The translations under genes were made by a program, and so were the position numbers. A stretch of 64,000 bases of DNA from NCBI RefSeq assembly GCF_003443735.1, contig NZ_CP031969.1:4154001-4218000 (forward strand). The letters are read 5' to 3'. The number at the start of each line of letters is the position of its first letter. Position 1 is the stretch's first letter. Shown here piece after piece: positions 45,129 to 52,557 of this stretch. Origin of the DNA: Streptomyces sp. CC0208 (GTDB taxonomy: Bacteria; Actinomycetota; Actinomycetes; Streptomycetales; Streptomycetaceae). Under the pieces are notes generated by a model. That model made no database searches. It had not been told where the DNA came from and worked only from the letters and a program-made list of their open reading frames with translations.

Positions 45129-46460
45129 CTAGGCAGCTTCCTTGTCGTGGCCTTCGTGATCGGTGCCGTAGCCCTCGGGCTTGTCGGGGTTGCCCTGATG
45201 CCCGCCATAACCGCCGTGGTCATCGGGCTTCCCGCCGTGATCGTGGTCGCTGGGCTTCTCGTCGTGATCGTGGCCGCCGGGCTTCTCGCCATGGTCGTGG
45301 TCGCCGGGCTTCTCGCCATGGTCATGGTCGCCGGGCTTCTCGCCATGGTCGTGGTCGCCGGGCTGGTGGCCGTGATCGTGATCGCCGTTTCCGCCGATCG
45401 AGCCGCCTGTCACACCGCCGTTCGTCCCGCCGATCGAGCCGCCGTTCGTACCGCCCGTGGTGCCGCTGGTGGTAACGCCCGCGACCAGACCACCCAGCAC
45501 GCCTCCGGTGGTTCCGCCCGTCGTCAGGACACCGCCGAGAAGACCGCCGCCGGTTCCGCCGCCCGTCGGCACACCGCCGATGACGCCGACCGTGGTGCTG
45601 CCCGTCGTGCCCGTGGTGGTGCTGCCCGTCGTGCCCGTGGTGGTGCCGCCCGACGTGGCACCGGCGACAACGCCACCCGTGATCAGACCACCGGTGGTTC
45701 CGCCGGCGGCACACGTACCGCGGTTGATCGTGTTGCTGTCCAGCGTCACGGCGCCGGTACGGGCCAGCGCCCGGCCGGCGATGGTCGCTCCCGTGGTGAC
45801 GGTGATCGACGCCTGGGCCATGATCGTGCCCACGAAGGTGGAGTTGGTGCCGAGGGTGGCCGAACTGCCGATCTGCCAGTACACGTTGCACGGCGAGGCG
45901 CCGTTGACGAGAGACACGGCGCTGCCGGATGCCGTCGTCAGGGTCGAACCGATCTGGAACACCCAGACCGCGCTGGGGTCGCCGTGTGCGTCGAGAGTGA
46001 GCGTGCCGGTGATGCCCGCGGAGATGGGGGCCTTGTAGACGCCCGGATCCAGCGTCCTGCCACCGAGCTCCACGGGGTCGGGAGCGGTGGGGTACGTGAC
46101 GTCCGGCGCCTGTCCGGCAGCGTTGTTGTACGCCGTGACCAGATCGCTCTTGGCCTGGAGTGCCACCGCGTCCGCGGAGTGCACGGCTCCGTTCACGACA
46201 CCGGGCGGGAATCCGGTGATGGCCGTTCCCGGCGACACCCCGAGATCACCGGTGATCAACGAGGGTCCGGTGTTGGTGACCTGGGAACCGGCCAGTACGG
46301 CAAAGCTGCTCGCCGTACCCAGAGGCACCGGGGTGGCAATGGCGCTCGCGGTTGTCGGCGTCATCGCGAGCACGACAGCGGCGATCACCACGGCCGTCAC
46401 CGCCGCGATCCACATCGACATGGTGCGCCGTAGCGGCGCTTCAGGGATGTTCAGCGTCAT
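45129..46460 (-). CDS. Secreted ice-binding-like (DUF3494) protein with Gly/Thr and His-rich repeat tail
   Basis: A 443-residue exported protein. Signal peptide about 1-40. The DUF3494 ice-binding-like fold is at about 42-250 (SSFAVLAGSQVTNTGPSLITGDLGVSPG, WVFQIGSTLTTASGSAV, TFVGTIMAQASITVTTGATIAGRAL). Then a Gly/Thr-rich linker (TTGTTGSTTTGTTG) and six or so repeats of the GDHDHGEKP type, with dense histidines and acids (about 370-430), before an acidic end. DUF3494 proteins in actinobacteria often serve as adhesins; ice binding is only suggested. The His/Asp tail could bind metal ions. GAAGGAG precedes the ATG by 11 bases. Confidence 0.85.
   Translation of the reverse strand: MTLNIPEAPLRRTMSMWIAAVTAVVIAAVVLAMTPTTASAIATPVPLGTASSFAVLAGSQVTNTGPSLITGDLGVSPGTAITGFPPGVVNGAVHSADAVALQAKSDLVTAYNNAAGQAPDVTYPTAPDPVELGGRTLDPGVYKAPISAGITGTLTLDAHGDPSAVWVFQIGSTLTTASGSAVSLVNGASPCNVYWQIGSSATLGTNSTFVGTIMAQASITVTTGATIAGRALARTGAVTLDSNTINRGTCAAGGTTGGLITGGVVAGATSGGTTTGTTGSTTTGTTGSTTVGVIGGVPTGGGTGGGLLGGVLTTGGTTGGVLGGLVAGVTTSGTTGGTNGGSIGGTNGGVTGGSIGGNGDHDHGHQPGDHDHGEKPGDHDHGEKPGDHDHGEKPGGHDHDEKPSDHDHGGKPDDHGGYGGHQGNPDKPEGYGTDHEGHDKEAA
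45210..45375 (-). repeat. Tandem repeats coding for the His-rich tail
   Basis: About six imperfect copies of a 27-base unit (reads GDHDHGEKP per copy) inside the gene's 3' part. Such repeats expand and contract by slippage, so the copy number may vary between strains. Confidence 0.7.
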
Positions 46461-48008: not shown

Positions 48009-48995
48009 ATGGGTACCGTCGTCGGGCTGGCCGTCACCGAGGGGATGCTGCCCTTCGAACTGTCCATGGCGTACGAGGTGTTCGGCGCCGCTCCGGTCGG
48101 CGTGACCGTGCCCTGGTACGACGTGGAGCTCTGCGGGTCGGACGCCGTGCGGCTCGGCCGGTTCCGGCTGGAGCCCGACCAGGGGCTCGACCGGCTCCGG
48201 CATGCCGACACCGTGATCGTCCCCGGCTGGGCGGACACCGACGTGGAGCCGCCCGCCGAGCTCGTCGGCGCGGTGCGTGCGGCCCACGAGGCCGGTGCGC
48301 GCGTGGCCTCCCTGTGCACGGGCGCCTTCGTGCTGGCGGCCGCCGGCCTGCTGGACGGCAGGCGGGCGACCACGCACTGGGTGCACACGGACGCCCTGGC
48401 CGCCCGCTACCCGCGGGTGGAGGTCGATCCGGACGTGCTCTACGTGGACGACGGCAGCGTGCTCACCTCAGCAGGCAAGGCCGCCGCGCTGGACCTGTGC
48501 CTGCACCTCGTCCGTCTCGACCACGGTTCGTCCGTCGCCAACGCCGTCGCCCGCCGCCTGGTGGTACCGCCCCATCGGGCGGGCGGCCAGGCGCAGTTCG
48601 TGGCCGCTCCGGTGCCCGCCCGTGACGACCATCCGCTCTCCGCGCTGCTCCCCTGGGCGATCGAACGCCTCGACCGCCCACTCACCGTGGAGGACCTGGC
48701 CCGCCAGGCCGGGATGAGCTCGCGTCATCTGGGACGCCAGTTCAGGGCGGTGACCGGCACCACCGCGCTCCAATGGCTGCTGACACAACGGATCCGCCGC
48801 GCACAGGAGTTGCTGGAGACCACCGACGACGTCGTCGACGCCATCGCGGCGGCCACCGGCATGGGCACCGCCACGACACTGCGCCGGCACTTCCACCGCA
48901 CGGTCGGTGTGCCTCCGGACACCTACCGCCGGACCTTCCGCTCACAGTCTTCGGGCATGCAGCCGGGGGCTACTTCAACCGGGCGGGGCGCTTGA
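48009..48995 (+). CDS. GlxA-type AraC family transcriptional regulator
   Basis: A 328-residue protein. N-terminal DJ-1/PfpI-like domain (about 1-180: ARVASLCTGAFVLAAAGLLDGRRATTHW, where the nucleophile region is SLCTG). C-terminal AraC domain with two helix-turn-helix motifs (VEDLARQAGMSSRHLGRQF and DAIAAATGMGTATTLRRHFHRTVG). The start ATG has a poor ribosome-binding site; a leaderless or alternative upstream start is possible. It is divergent to the saccharopine-dehydrogenase-like gene, a likely target. The last 26 bases overlap the converging gene. Confidence 0.9.
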   Translation: MGTVVGLAVTEGMLPFELSMAYEVFGAAPVGVTVPWYDVELCGSDAVRLGRFRLEPDQGLDRLRHADTVIVPGWADTDVEPPAELVGAVRAAHEAGARVASLCTGAFVLAAAGLLDGRRATTHWVHTDALAARYPRVEVDPDVLYVDDGSVLTSAGKAAALDLCLHLVRLDHGSSVANAVARRLVVPPHRAGGQAQFVAAPVPARDDHPLSALLPWAIERLDRPLTVEDLARQAGMSSRHLGRQFRAVTGTTALQWLLTQRIRRAQELLETTDDVVDAIAAATGMGTATTLRRHFHRTVGVPPDTYRRTFRSQSSGMQPGATSTGRGA

Positions 48996-49599
48996 TGCCC
49001 GCGCGGTTGGCCTTCTCGACGCGCTCCGGGCCGGCGTCCTTCCGGTACTTCTCCGTTTCGGCCCAGTCCCTGGGCTGCAGGAAGAGCATTTCACCGCCCC
49101 CCGGCACGATGAACGCGCCCCCGAAGGGCTCGTCACCCGCGAACCAGACACCGTCCGTGATGCCGACGGGCCACCGACCCCGCCCCAAGGCGTCCTTGGC
49201 ACGCAGGGTGAAGGGCGTGCCGGTCTGATCTCCGAAGCGCACGTAGAGCGTGTGGGTGGACTCCATGCCGTATTTCTCGACCGGTGTGCGGAATTCGAGC
49301 GGGTAGGTCCGGAACACCTTCGAGCACTTCCGGGCCAGACTCAGGCGGCCGGCGAGAAGGAACAGTGTCCACACCATGCCGAACATTCCGACAATGCCCA
49401 CCGGCAGCAAATAGTCGAGGTGGAGCACGAACAGCTGGACCCACAACAGCAGGAACACCGGGAAGAACTTGAGGAATCTCTTCAGCGCGACGCGGTGGTG
49501 GTAGCGCACCGCACCCTGGAAGTCCGTTCCGTCGGTCGGGTACGGCGCGGGCGGGGTGTCCGACTCCAGACCGTCCTTCCACCGTTCTGGCACCGTCAT
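48970..49599 (-). CDS. Membrane protein of the WXG operon (unknown function)
   Basis: A 209-residue protein with two transmembrane helices in the middle (LKFFPVFLLLWVQLFVLHL and LLPVGIVGMFGMVWTLFLLAG) and a C-terminal cytoplasmic domain with VRFGDQTGTPFTLRAKDALGRG and VPGGGEMLFLQPRDW. The start overlaps the stop of the previous gene by 4 bases (ATGA). It is the last gene of the four-gene WXG100 operon and may be an accessory or immunity factor. I recognise no family. Confidence 0.75.
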   Translation of the reverse strand: MTVPERWKDGLESDTPPAPYPTDGTDFQGAVRYHHRVALKRFLKFFPVFLLLWVQLFVLHLDYLLPVGIVGMFGMVWTLFLLAGRLSLARKCSKVFRTYPLEFRTPVEKYGMESTHTLYVRFGDQTGTPFTLRAKDALGRGRWPVGITDGVWFAGDEPFGGAFIVPGGGEMLFLQPRDWAETEKYRKDAGPERVEKANRAGIKRPARLK

Positions 49600-50300
49600 C
49601 CGAACGGGCTCCTTTCGTCAGTCCCTGAGCCGGAGCCCGGGAACGGGCCGGACGCGTTCTCCGCTTCGGCCGGGTCCGGCACCGCAGGGTCGTCCAACGT
49701 CACCGTACGCGCGACACCGAGCAGCACGGCCCGGTAGTCGTCGGCGAGCTCCACGGACGCGGTGACCAGCTGCACGGTGATGATCGACGAGGTGCGGGGA
49801 ACCGGGATCGCCACGGTGCCCTGCCAGACGGTGCCCTCCGCGGGGCCTTCCTGACCGTCGGGGGGAGCGGTCGGCGCGACCGTGGTGCGTTCCGTCTCCC
49901 ACAGGTATCCGGTGCCGACGGGCAGCTCCACAGGCACGAGGCCGTCGGCCGTGCCGGTGCCGAGCATGTGAAGGAGCACGGCATTAGGGTTGGCACCCGA
50001 GGTGGGGACGGTGGAGACCGTGAGGACGGACAGCGTGGCCCCGTCCTGCTCGTCCGGATGCATACCGAGCGCGCACCCCATGACCTGCTGACTCCGCAAC
50101 ATCGTCAGGACGACGGCGTACAGGCGGAACACCTGGTCGGCGCGGTCCCGCACGTCTTCGGGAAGGGCGCTGAGCTGCCGGGCCACCTCCTGGATGCCCT
50201 CGGGTGACGGCTGAAGGTCCAGCTGGAGGTACCCATGGGGCAGCCCGTACCAGAACTCCGGCTTCGGTTCGGTCGCGACCGTGTCAATGAATCCGTTCAC
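49596..50300 (-). CDS. Soluble protein of the WXG operon (unknown function)
   Basis: A 234-residue protein with no signal and no helix. Contains WYGLPHGYLQLDLQPSPEGI at the start and a repeated beta pattern (ATLSVLTVSTVPTS, TVWQGTVAIPVPRTSSIITVQLVTAS). ATG overlaps the stop of the previous gene (ATGA) and its stop overlaps the next start. It may be a chaperone or EspG/immunity-like partner; this is inferred from context only. Confidence 0.75.
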   Translation of the reverse strand: MNGFIDTVATEPKPEFWYGLPHGYLQLDLQPSPEGIQEVARQLSALPEDVRDRADQVFRLYAVVLTMLRSQQVMGCALGMHPDEQDGATLSVLTVSTVPTSGANPNAVLLHMLGTGTADGLVPVELPVGTGYLWETERTTVAPTAPPDGQEGPAEGTVWQGTVAIPVPRTSSIITVQLVTASVELADDYRAVLLGVARTVTLDDPAVPDPAEAENASGPFPGSGSGTDERSPFG

Positions 50301-51583
50301 AGCCTGACCCCCGCCATCAGTTGTCCGACATCCAGCGCGATGCCTTTGACACCGTCGACCAGACCGGTCGAGGCGGCCGCACCCTTCGTGACCTCGGACG
50401 CGTCGTGTCCGGGACCGTTCTTCGGCAACACGCCCATGTTCTCCAGGGACGACGCCATGTTCGCCGCCACGTTGACGCCGTTGATGCCGTACTGGAGCGC
50501 GCCGGTGGCGGGGGAGGTCGCCGCATCGAGAGCCTTGTAACTGAAGGCGGGAACGATTTCCTTGCCGAACGCACCGAGCTTCGAGCCCAGCGACAAGGCC
50601 TCGCCTCCTTCCCGGGCGACCGCCGCCGCGAGACCCGCCTCGCTGCCGGCCCTCGCGAGGGCACCGACACCGGGCACCATGCCGAGGCCGTCACCGACCA
50701 TGGAGGCCCAGGCGAACGCGCCTTCCTTGAGGCCGTACTCACCCATCAGCGAGTCTCTGAAGTCCTCACTCGCGAGGTTCTTGGCCATGGAGACCGCGCT
50801 CGCCGCGACCGCGATACCGAGGAAGACCGGCGCCAACGGGGTGGGGAGCAGGGCCAGCAGACCCGCGATGGCGCCGATGGTCCCGGCGTGCTCCACGAGG
50901 AACTCGCCGACCGCCTTCAGGCCCTCGCCGATGGCGCTGAGGGCCTTGTCGAACCACCCCGGCTCCTTGGGGGCGAGCTTGTCGTCGGCCTCGTCGAGGC
51001 TGCGGGCGACGGTCTCGGCCGCGTCGGTGTGGGTGCCCTCCAGTTCCTTGGCCTTCGCGATGACGTCGTTGTAGGCGGTGTTGGCGTTGTTGAGGTGAGT
51101 GGTGGCCTCGTTCAGTTCGCGCTCGGCGGTACGCAGGCGCTCCGTCGCGGCATCCGCCTCCGCCTGGCTGGGGTATTCCCTGCCGGCGAGCTTGAGGTCC
51201 GGGTTCCCCGCGGCCTGGTCGTAGCGGGTCCTGGCCTTGTCGGCGTCAGCCTTGTTCTCGCGGGCGGCGTCGTCGTACTTCTTGGCCAGTTCGCGGTGGG
51301 AGGTCAGGTCGCCTTCCCATTTGCCGAGCGCCACGGCGGCTTTGTCGAGCGAATGCCCCGCGTTCATCATGGCGGTCTTGAGGTCGCCGTCCAGCGTGTC
51401 CCGGAACGCGCTCGCGGCGTCTCCGTGCCAACTGGAGCTCGCCCCGAGCAGATACTCGATCTGACGGTGGCAGTTGTTGAGTGTGTCGGCCGCGGACTTC
51501 ACCTTGCGGTAGAGGGAGGTGACCTGCTCGGGTATCCCGGGTACCGGATTCCAGCCGAGGCTCGGGAACGGGTTGTCAGCCAC
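50297..51583 (-). CDS. Putative type VII-secreted protein with WXG/ESAT-6-like N-terminus
   Basis: A 428-residue protein. Residues about 15-200 are helical and resemble a WXG/LXG-type secretion domain (SSSWHGDAASAFRDTLDGDLKTAM, SHREL, then ADKARTRYDQAAG, RLRTAERELNEATTHLNNANTAYND). The middle holds a hydrophobic, glycine-rich segment (GTIGAIAGLLALLPTPLAPVFLGIAVAASAVSMAK), resembling a pore or membrane-insertion region, and the rest has no known toxin fold. It is an effector candidate of a type VII secretion system. It overlaps the next gene by 4 bases and follows the WXG100 gene by 3 bases. Confidence 0.8.
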   Translation of the reverse strand: MADNPFPSLGWNPVPGIPEQVTSLYRKVKSAADTLNNCHRQIEYLLGASSSWHGDAASAFRDTLDGDLKTAMMNAGHSLDKAAVALGKWEGDLTSHRELAKKYDDAARENKADADKARTRYDQAAGNPDLKLAGREYPSQAEADAATERLRTAERELNEATTHLNNANTAYNDVIAKAKELEGTHTDAAETVARSLDEADDKLAPKEPGWFDKALSAIGEGLKAVGEFLVEHAGTIGAIAGLLALLPTPLAPVFLGIAVAASAVSMAKNLASEDFRDSLMGEYGLKEGAFAWASMVGDGLGMVPGVGALARAGSEAGLAAAVAREGGEALSLGSKLGAFGKEIVPAFSYKALDAATSPATGALQYGINGVNVAANMASSLENMGVLPKNGPGHDASEVTKGAAASTGLVDGVKGIALDVGQLMAGVRL

Positions 51584-51586
51584 CGG

Positions 51587-51910
51587 TCACTTACCCCCGG
51601 TGTTCGCGGCGTTGGTCTCTTCCATCTTCTTGAGGGCCTTCGAGAGGTTCTCCTCGAACTGCCGGTAGCTCAGCGCGGTCTTTTCCACGCCTTCGTCCAC
51701 CGCTTTGATCATGTCCTTCAGCTGGCCTGTTCCGTACTTCCATCTGTTCTGGAAGGTCTCGCACGCCTCGTCCAGCCGCGGAGTTCCGATCTGGTCGGCA
51801 CTGACCGCGGAGAGCGCTGAGCGCGCCTCCTCCAGGTCAGTCACGGACTGCTTCAACACCCGGCCAAAAGAGTTCAATTGACCCAGATCGACCTTAAATT
51901 CATCCGCCAT
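51587..51910 (-). CDS. WXG100-family protein (ESAT-6-like)
   Basis: A 107-residue helical protein: FKVDLGQLNSFGRVLKQSVTDLEEARSAL, then ETFQNRWKYGTGQLKDMIKAVDEGVEKTAL, then FEENLSKALKKMEE. A W (in NRWKYG) occupies the turn between two helices in place of the strict WxG. AAGGGGG lies about 8 bases before the ATG. First gene of the operon, likely secretion partner of the downstream 428-residue protein. No ESX core genes (EccB, EccC, EccD) are in the window. Confidence 0.82.
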   Translation of the reverse strand: MADEFKVDLGQLNSFGRVLKQSVTDLEEARSALSAVSADQIGTPRLDEACETFQNRWKYGTGQLKDMIKAVDEGVEKTALSYRQFEENLSKALKKMEETNAANTGGK

Positions 51911-52159: not shown

Positions 52160-52420
52160 CTGGCAGAAGGACCGGCGCCAGTCCCAGGGCGAGGCCGCCG
52201 CGGGAGTGGTTCACCGGCATCCAGTCGGCGAGTGAGGCGCCGAGGGGGCGGGTGACGACGTAGGCGGCCCAGAAGGCGGTCACCGCGTTCAGACCGCTGA
52301 GGCAGTGGGCTGCCGCGGGCACGCGGATCGCCGGCAGCTGTGCCGAGGGCGAACGCGGCGAGGACGGCCGCCCAGTAGAACGTCTCCCGGCGGCGGGTCC
52401 GGTCCGACAGGATCGGCAGG
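52160..52420 (-). pseudogene. COG4705-type membrane protein fragment, decayed
   Basis: Two conserved pieces of a four-helix COG4705 membrane protein are recognisable in different frames. The first (RETFYWAAVLAAFALGTAAGD, about 52330-52420) and the second (FWAAYVVTRPLGASLADW within about 52170-52295) lie too close together, so residues are missing between them and the frame is shifted. No start or stop fits. A gene remnant. Confidence 0.7.
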
Positions 52421-52557
52421 CACGGCGGACCCGCCGGACCCGCCGTGAGGCTCCCGGCTCGCTCGTGAGGGCTGTCCGAGGAACCCGCCAGGTCGAGCCG
52501 CTCGGCGAACTGCCCACGCGGGACCGGCAGTTCACAGAGCGGCAGCCGGCGTCAGCC

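Follow-up and report, generated by a model that had tools for sequence, protein, structure and literature searches.

A conserved four-gene Streptomyces operon, probably an export-tagged type VII secretion module, with a Phe-Gly tail common to its third protein and the EsxB of one ESX subtype

Four coupled genes on the minus strand

The window analysed here, a stretch of 64,000 nucleotides of Streptomyces sp. CC0208 (4.154-4.218 Mb of the single 9.32-Mb contig NZ_CP031969.1), contains four co-directional genes on the minus strand, from 51910 to 48970, which we call g1 to g4. They form a conserved operon that is tied to one subtype of the ESX secretion machine. The first protein carries the YxxxD/E export signal of the type VII secretion system (T7SS), and the third ends in Phe-Gly (FG), in agreement with the EsxB of that subtype. 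The operon is probably an export-tagged T7SS effector-type module from which a protein is secreted. T7SS effector modules are already known in kind; what is new here is the FG end common to g3 and EsxB.

The gene g1 (51587..51910) encodes a WXG-like partner of 107 amino acids (aa) from an ATG start, and g2 (50297..51583) a putative T7SS-exported protein of 428 aa from a GTG start. The 234-aa product of g3 (49596..50300, GTG start) has a predicted Mog1/PsbP-type fold with a disordered C-terminal arm, and the 209-aa product of g4 (48970..49599, ATG start) is a two-helix membrane protein with a beta domain and a candidate immunity protein. Reading of the junctions bore out the coupled four-gene operon that an earlier note on this DNA had described: the stop of g1 and the start of g2 are separated by a gap of 3 bases, while g2 and g3 overlap in GTGA and g3 and g4 in ATGA. 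No promoter-like site was found at the operon. One terminator-like site was found against a mean of 2.1 in shuffled sequence, hence none beyond the shuffled number.

The product of g1 contains a W-x-x-G motif (W57 to G60, 51742-51731) and the sequence Y82-x-x-x-E86 (51667-51653). Its scores stayed below the WXG100 cut-offs (PF06013, 16.4 bits against 27.3; TIGR03930, 12.8 bits against 44.85), and its best Pfam match, DUF6317, was likewise under cut-off. Because the motif is present and the score too low, we class g1 as WXG-like and not as the WXG100 protein of the earlier note. The export signal YxxxD/E past residue 50 was found in 59 of 61 distinct g1 proteins adjoining g2, against a mean of 17.9 and a maximum of 30 of 61 after shuffling. 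The tyrosine stands 25 residues after the tryptophan in 53 of the 61.

The product of g2 belongs to the T7SS_signal family, with a PF21725 domain at residues 16-179 (30.2 bits, cut-off 27). This match, together with the YxxxD/E motif of g1, backs the T7SS effector-like module suspected earlier. The N-terminal part of g2 also has relatives within far longer open frames, of about 1500 aa. The C-terminal half is rich in glycine and alanine, and a single strong hydrophobic stretch was confirmed where one had been noted, at residues 242-260 (50860-50804; Kyte-Doolittle value 2.09 over 19 residues from residue 242). The score against the LXG domain PF04740 was 12.6 bits with a cut-off of 26.5, which places g2 outside that family. 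A polymorphic toxin tip was considered and rejected, conservation along 57 g2 proteins (that of the window included) dropping sharply only in the last 28 residues. From its sequence, g2 looks like an exported protein and not like a toxin with an exchangeable tip. A defence system was also rejected: the PADLOC matches on g2 were discounted because they lay mostly within its coiled-coil half, and were attributed to the coiled coil.

Neither g3 nor g4 matched any Pfam or NCBIfam family at E≤1, as the earlier note had stated. In particular, g3 had no sequence match at this limit to the Eag family DUF1795 (Pfam and NCBIfam) or to DUF5085, the ExiAB type (Pfam). The AlphaFold2 model of g3 (29 sequences) gave a mean predicted local distance difference test score (pLDDT) of 75.8 and a predicted template modelling score (pTM) of 0.70, and consists of a mixed alpha/beta domain followed by residues 212-234 with pLDDT below 50. 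The best Foldseek hit to this model had an E-value of 2.6e-3 and a probability of 0.99, and high probabilities were obtained for PsbP, Tsi3, LpqN and Mog1. With VIA-align, the highest values were those of a Jonesia protein (3lyd, Z 11.8), a Bacteroides protein (3hlz, Z 11.3) and LpqN (Z 11.2), followed by the immunity protein Tsi3 (4n7s, Z 10.6), EagT6 in complex with Tse6 (6xrf, Z 10.3), SciW bound to the transmembrane domain of Rhs1 (6xrr, Z 9.7), PsbP entries (up to 9.5) and Mog1 (Z 9.1). The model thus assigns g3 a Mog1/PsbP-type fold over residues of about 10-204. Eag chaperones are described as stabilising the transmembrane domains of effectors of the type VI secretion system (T6SS). In view of the likeness of the predicted fold to EagT6 and SciW, it is a natural guess that g3 may hold the hydrophobic stretch of g2. 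The earlier proposal of a chaperone at this position therefore gains a structural counterpart, at the level of a model that also resembles Tsi3.

Two strong hydrophobic stretches are seen in the sequence of g4. Its model (38 sequences; pLDDT 83.9, pTM 0.77) shows two long helices, predicted at residues 27-59 (49521-49423, minus strand) and 62-98 (49416-49306, minus strand), and a beta domain at residues 102-176. No clear solved relative of this fold was found: no Z exceeded 5.3 among 998 chains compared, and no Foldseek hit had an E-value below 0.5. On average g4 was the least conserved of g2 to g4 in every distance band over 1035 operon pairs; in the band in which g2 is 55-65% identical, for example, the mean identities were 0.60 for g2, 0.50 for g3 and 0.35 for g4. 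At least two g4-type genes, pieces included, were present in 14 of 36 loci, some of them on the opposite strand, and 7 of the 24 genomes having g4 lacked a strong g3. An adjacent, duplicated, orphaned and divergent membrane-protein gene is the T7SS immunity pattern, and g4 shows it. A last gene with the fastest divergence, extra copies and orphans gives the usual picture of immunity genes, as described for tsaI in PMC9484751 and for exiCD in PMC12744356. By these features of sequence and distribution, g4 behaves like the immunity candidate that it had been taken for. The stand-alone g4 relatives in loci L105, L106, L108 and L111 are each followed by a 183-aa gene on the same strand (L and G numbers are the locus and genome labels of this analysis).

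The Phe-Gly tail and the ESX subtype

Relatives at E≤0.001 were found for g2 in 64, for g3 in 44 and for g4 in 24 of 150 genomes of the genus. Around 56 FG-ended g3 genes (at least 200 bits, nine repeat loci and L101 dropped), g2 lay directly upstream in 54 and g4 directly downstream in 48. Since the g2-g3-g4 order recurs in dozens of Streptomyces loci, the arrangement is not due to chance; the genes flanking the cassette vary between genomes. Five of the eight g3 genes without g4 (L096, L100, L134, L144, L152) belong to a second g3 subfamily, in which the next gene encodes a different hydrophobic protein; the number of its hydrophobic stretches ranges from one to five. In L100 (3199-8244) and L134 (3645-9329), g1-g2-g3 operons of two subfamilies are arranged face to face; in L134 the second of them lies close to eccC. 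The g3 search gave 36 related loci, 34 of which have Streptomyces in their title. Of 394 genomes sampled evenly across the class, 11 had a g3 relative at E≤1e-10, each of them from the genus of the window, 1 of the 137 genera sampled; at the same limit the plasmid collection yielded none. The co-occurrence survey that had been suggested for the operon thus delivered a conserved Streptomyces cassette linked to one ESX subtype. In the literature, no title among the matches listed names an FG tail or the g1-g4 operon.

The absence of ESX core genes noted earlier holds for the window and not for the genome. A search of the genome, as the earlier note had advised, located the core at about 2.447-2.481 Mb of the same contig, approximately 1.7 Mb from the window. 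The only match over the EccC cut-off in the genome lies at 2.449-2.451 Mb, and the segment 2.473-2.481 Mb encodes EccB, a WXG100 pair and two mycosin-like proteases, one above and one just under cut-off. A paralogous g1-g2-g3 set stands beside eccC at about 2.4514-2.4543 Mb (L096), where the fourth gene encodes a different hydrophobic protein of 166 aa. A further g1/g2/g3-type set was found at about 2.4704-2.4729 Mb. In S. abyssalis (L158) a module of the window type lies close to EccC, and in L160 and L163 a gene of EccC-like size, judged by size only, occupies the same place. The ESX region of the genome also encodes, at 6208-9379 of L096, a 582-aa protein with a WPNVDE-type N-terminus, whose gene is followed on the same strand by genes of 190 and 265 aa; these three could be a further effector and its immunity genes.

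The last two codons of g3 before the stop (49599..49604, minus strand) encode Phe-Gly within the tail RSPFG, which we propose to be an export tail recognised by EccC. An FG end was present in 50 of 52 g3 proteins, the exceptions being L102 and a short piece in L104. Elsewhere in the loci it was found in 0/78 g4, 2/62 g2 and 3/71 g1 proteins and in 14/659 others, one of the latter being a g3 piece. In a sample of 38 evenly spaced stretches of the genome plus the window, with the ESX neighbourhood counted apart, 3 of 728 proteins ended in FG, namely g3 itself and two proteins of L184 (G000:C1:3190001-3210000). The ESX stretches of the genome (L096 and L097) encode five FG-ended proteins, including the second g3 and a CFP-10-like WXG100 protein ending in SPFG; the CFP-10-like EsxB and g3 of this genome therefore bear the same type of tail. 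L184 is itself another T7SS-type cluster, with a T7SS_signal gene at 3192795 in an open frame of 867 aa.

We listed 21 FG-ended proteins: one EsxB, one g3 piece and 19 others. Thirteen of the 19 had a hit at E≤0.05 to a WXG100, WXG100_2, EspC or T7SS_signal model, and for 11 of these the score exceeded the cut-off. The remaining six had no T7SS match; they are proteins of L108, L119 and L122:677 and the 78-aa protein of L184 (no match at all), the 240-aa protein of L184, which has an SseB N-terminal domain, and an unrelated TruB in L211. In L100 and L134 one g3 each has acquired an extra C-terminal domain of about 135 residues, yet it ends in SVFG. Among g3 relatives from genomes without the ESX subtype, none of six complete ones in G009, G024, G040 and G041 ended in FG, nor did any of four in two further genomes (G087, G095). 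The tail might be common to these proteins by descent and base composition, without a joint receptor. The rarity of FG ends, the T7SS-type character of most other bearers, the retention of the tail at the very end behind an added domain and its absence from relatives in genomes without the subtype all argue against this. Furthermore, g3 and EsxB belong to different families, so the tail was not inherited by homology between them. The FG end of g3 may be a label that addresses proteins for secretion.

When 61 genomes were searched and the 30 best loci read, two types of CFP-10-like EsxB were distinguished: proteins from 10 loci with at least 51% identity all ended in S[PD]FG, and those from 20 loci at 20-37% identity never ended in FG. 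Once repeats had been removed, all 56 genomes read for the FG subtype had an EsxB with the ending S[PD]FG (57 rows less three repeats, plus two read later). A profile of this first type matched 28 of the 150 genomes at E≤1e-45, the next best match being at 1e-20. A strong g3 was found in 21 of the 150 genomes at E≤1e-11, a limit chosen after the list had been seen, and 19 of the 21 had the FG ESX subtype (Fisher p 2.3e-15). The same was true of 21 of the 24 genomes with g4 (p 9e-17); these tests count genomes as independent, which related genomes are not. The subtype was present in 36/36 genomes behind the related loci.

EsxB of the FG subtype ends in either SPFG or SDFG, and we refer to the corresponding genomes as P and D genomes. 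The residue preceding FG in g3 (position -3) varied accordingly. It was Asp in 25 of 26 FG-ended g3 proteins of D genomes and in 0 of 31 of P genomes, where Pro (23) and Val (8) occurred. In a tree of 57 FG-ended g3 domains (at least 150 bits, tail left out), all 57 agreed with the EsxB of their own genome in Asp or not-Asp at -3. In L159 and L168, where g3 ends in KSDFG, EsxB was read afterwards and ended in SDFG as predicted; L168 is a weak test because it has the same g3 as G085. Among FG-ended proteins other than the g3 set, an acidic residue stood at -3 in 7 of the 9 from D genomes and in none of the 12 from P genomes (Fisher p 3e-4); the P row includes EsxB itself and TruB, and the two exceptions of the D row are the g3 piece (Thr) and one g2 (Val). 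Tails also agreed within G368 (RSPFG, RSPFG, RDVFG) and G385 (RSPFG, DSVFG), two genomes whose EsxB type was not determined. g3 has the same tail as the EsxB of the machine in its own genome.

A candidate reader of the tail is EccC. PMC6954902 describes binding of the EsxB tails LSSQMGF and VQALLNG, of mycobacterial and Thermomonospora origin, to a pocket of the EccC ATPase3 domain. The EccC of our genome aligned with the Thermomonospora structures over this domain with E-values of 1e-95 and 3e-94. Recognition of the g3 tail by EccC is a well-grounded guess from these sequences.

Interpretation and alternatives

We propose that the operon provides one cargo complex for the ESX machine of the genome, together with a membrane guard. 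The motif-bearing g1 and the N-terminal half of g2, with its T7SS family match, would pair as a WXG-type helical bundle carrying the YxxxD/E signal. The effector would be g2, its hydrophobic stretch acting on or crossing a membrane. Through its predicted fold, g3 would keep this stretch soluble before export, as Eag proteins do for T6SS effectors. Its FG arm, with the -3 residue that matches EsxB, would be read by the third ATPase domain of EccC like the tail of EsxB, so that the export signal would be split and g3 would contribute, in trans, the half that is specific to the machine. The duplicated, orphaned and divergent g4 would guard the producer and its kin from g2 at the membrane. Complex formation, the chaperone role, recognition by EccC, export, membrane action and toxicity of g2 and immunity through g4 are what we infer. 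That the operon is a variant of T7SS effector modules is the best reading. Its full form, a T7SS cargo module with an EccC-type export tail on a chaperone-like partner and g4 as membrane guard, stands in our judgement at even odds. The more general proposal is held a little more tentatively. It states that one ESX subtype uses a portable x-F-G C-terminal address, common to unrelated proteins and tuned by the -3 residue, and that the signal is split between YxxxD/E of g1 and the tail of the Eag-fold g3.

Several observations weigh against this interpretation. No toxin domain and no exchanged C-terminus were found in g2. Glycine-zipper motifs numbered 5 in residues 201-428 against a shuffled mean of 2.5 (P 0.13), which is no significant enrichment over shuffles and no proof of a pore. 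The Foldseek E-value of g3 never reached 0.001, and a common fold does not imply function. The link to the ESX subtype depends on the limit chosen for a strong g3, since at E≤0.001 only 20 of the 44 genomes with a g3 relative have the FG ESX subtype; two strong matches, in G040 and G079, also lie in genomes without it. FG is missing from three g3 pieces of D genomes that score low or are broken (L119 twice, L171). In the D genomes there are further a divergent g3 ending in TFG (L114), under the score limit of the tree, and the g2 of L171 ending in VFG. The -3 agreement corresponds to 5 switches of each trait, with 2 contrasts on well-supported branches; with so few switches a sign test of the match cannot reach significance.

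The EccC proteins give a further point on the same side. Those of D genomes and those of P genomes fall into separate groups, distinguished by many fixed differences, so that the -3 residue could be a mark of machine groups, with common history as a possible cause. In an alignment of 14 D and 15 P sequences, a consistent difference (Ser in D, Tyr in P) was seen at 1 of 10 pocket positions, against 34 of 250 ATPase3 columns. The pocket had been located manually, with the help of the EccCb1 alignment and the residue numbering of PMC6954902. By this mapping differences are not concentrated in the tail pocket, which gives no proof of a -3 code. G036 and G145 were left out of this alignment, since in both the top-scoring EccC differs from the EccC closest to EsxB; in several draft genomes EccC and EsxB lie on different contigs, so that their pairing is presumed.

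Among the alternatives, the one that survives best keeps g3 inside the cell. Like ExiB for EsxX, it would be a cytoplasmic chaperone or antitoxin that is stripped off at the machine, and its FG end would serve for docking. According to PMC12744356, the EsxX of S. aureus has its glycine zipper bound by the soluble ExiAB while in the cytoplasm, protection from outside comes from a pair of membrane proteins, and a stripping step at the channel is proposed. Our operon shows the same split, g3 going with g2 (54 of 56) while g4-type genes occur as orphans. On the other hand, the EsxB with the same tail is expected by homology to be exported, likewise the FG-ended WXG-type proteins, although docking without export would still fit. 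We regard this retention of g3 as possible, if on the doubtful side.

It is rather unlikely, to our mind, that the module is exported without being a weapon, with g2 in a structural or signalling role in hyphae or development and g4 as its membrane dock or receptor. The missing toxin domain and the conservation of g2 along its length save the last 28 residues would suit such a role, and Esx proteins of Streptomyces have an effect on development. The charges that flank the helices of g4, as read in the sequence, place the beta domain in the cytoplasm, where it could be useful as a dock for g3. Against this stands that g4, in the manner of immunity genes, diverges faster than g2 and g3 in every band (0.35 against 0.50 for g3 in the band cited above), has two or more copies in 14 of 36 loci, pieces included, and occurs without a strong g3 in 7 of 24 genomes; in the second subfamily its place is taken by a different hydrophobic protein. 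Finally, the idea that descent and base composition account for the tail and the residue at -3 draws on the low number of independent switches (5, with good support for 2) and on the two EccC groups, and is quite improbable in the face of the distribution of FG ends described above.

The choice of cargo by T7SS beyond the WXG pair is a long-standing question that has been studied mostly in mycobacteria and Bacillota. A short tail from which T7SS cargo could be predicted by sequence, in two variants for two machine subtypes, would open cargo choice to a direct test by swapping residues in harmless soil bacteria. It would further connect a type VII cargo with the fold of the chaperones that serve type VI effectors.

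Two further features of the minus strand were noted around the operon. Between the operon and an esterase gene, at 52160-52460, lies what appears by eye to be a decayed membrane-protein gene, with typical helix sequence split over two frames (AFWAAYVVTRPLGASLADW and FYWAAVLAAFALGTAAGD). On the other side, at 45129-46460, a 443-aa secreted-looking protein ends in a C-terminal run of His-rich repeats of the GDHDHGEKP type; its N-terminus resembles that of the DUF3494 ice-binding family.

Comparison with known systems

The nearest functional parallel is the EsxX-ExiAB-ExiCD system of S. aureus with LapX3/X4, a T7SSb system for an LXG toxin that is built from different protein families (PMC12744356). 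In both, a secreted protein with a hydrophobic region is accompanied by a helical export partner and by a soluble neutraliser, a part that g3 would play here, and there are membrane proteins that also occur alone. They differ in that ExiAB are DUF5085 proteins with a GyrI-like fold (same paper), whereas g3 has a predicted Mog1/PsbP-type fold with an FG arm. In addition, g2 falls under the LXG cut-off of Pfam, and its toxicity would have to be supposed.

The T6SS chaperones EagT6 and SciW resemble g3 in the fold of its model (Z 10.3 and 9.7) and in having a partner with a hydrophobic stretch. In contrast to them, g3 has no DUF1795 sequence match and would act in a different secretion system. 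Eag proteins are not known to have a C-terminal export arm.

As with the tandem immunity genes of TspA-TsaI (PMC9484751), membrane-protein genes that are duplicated and divergent follow the gene of the secreted protein. TsaI, a DUF443 protein, has about five helices in that account, whereas g4 has two helices and a beta domain in its model. For the tail, the precedent is EsxB (CFP-10) and its reading by EccC ATPase3 (PMC6954902). Here too the tail lies at the very C-terminus with an aromatic residue near the end, and FG is found on a CFP-10-like WXG100 protein. Unlike in that precedent, the tail is also borne by the non-WXG protein g3, and its -3 residue varies with the machine subtype.

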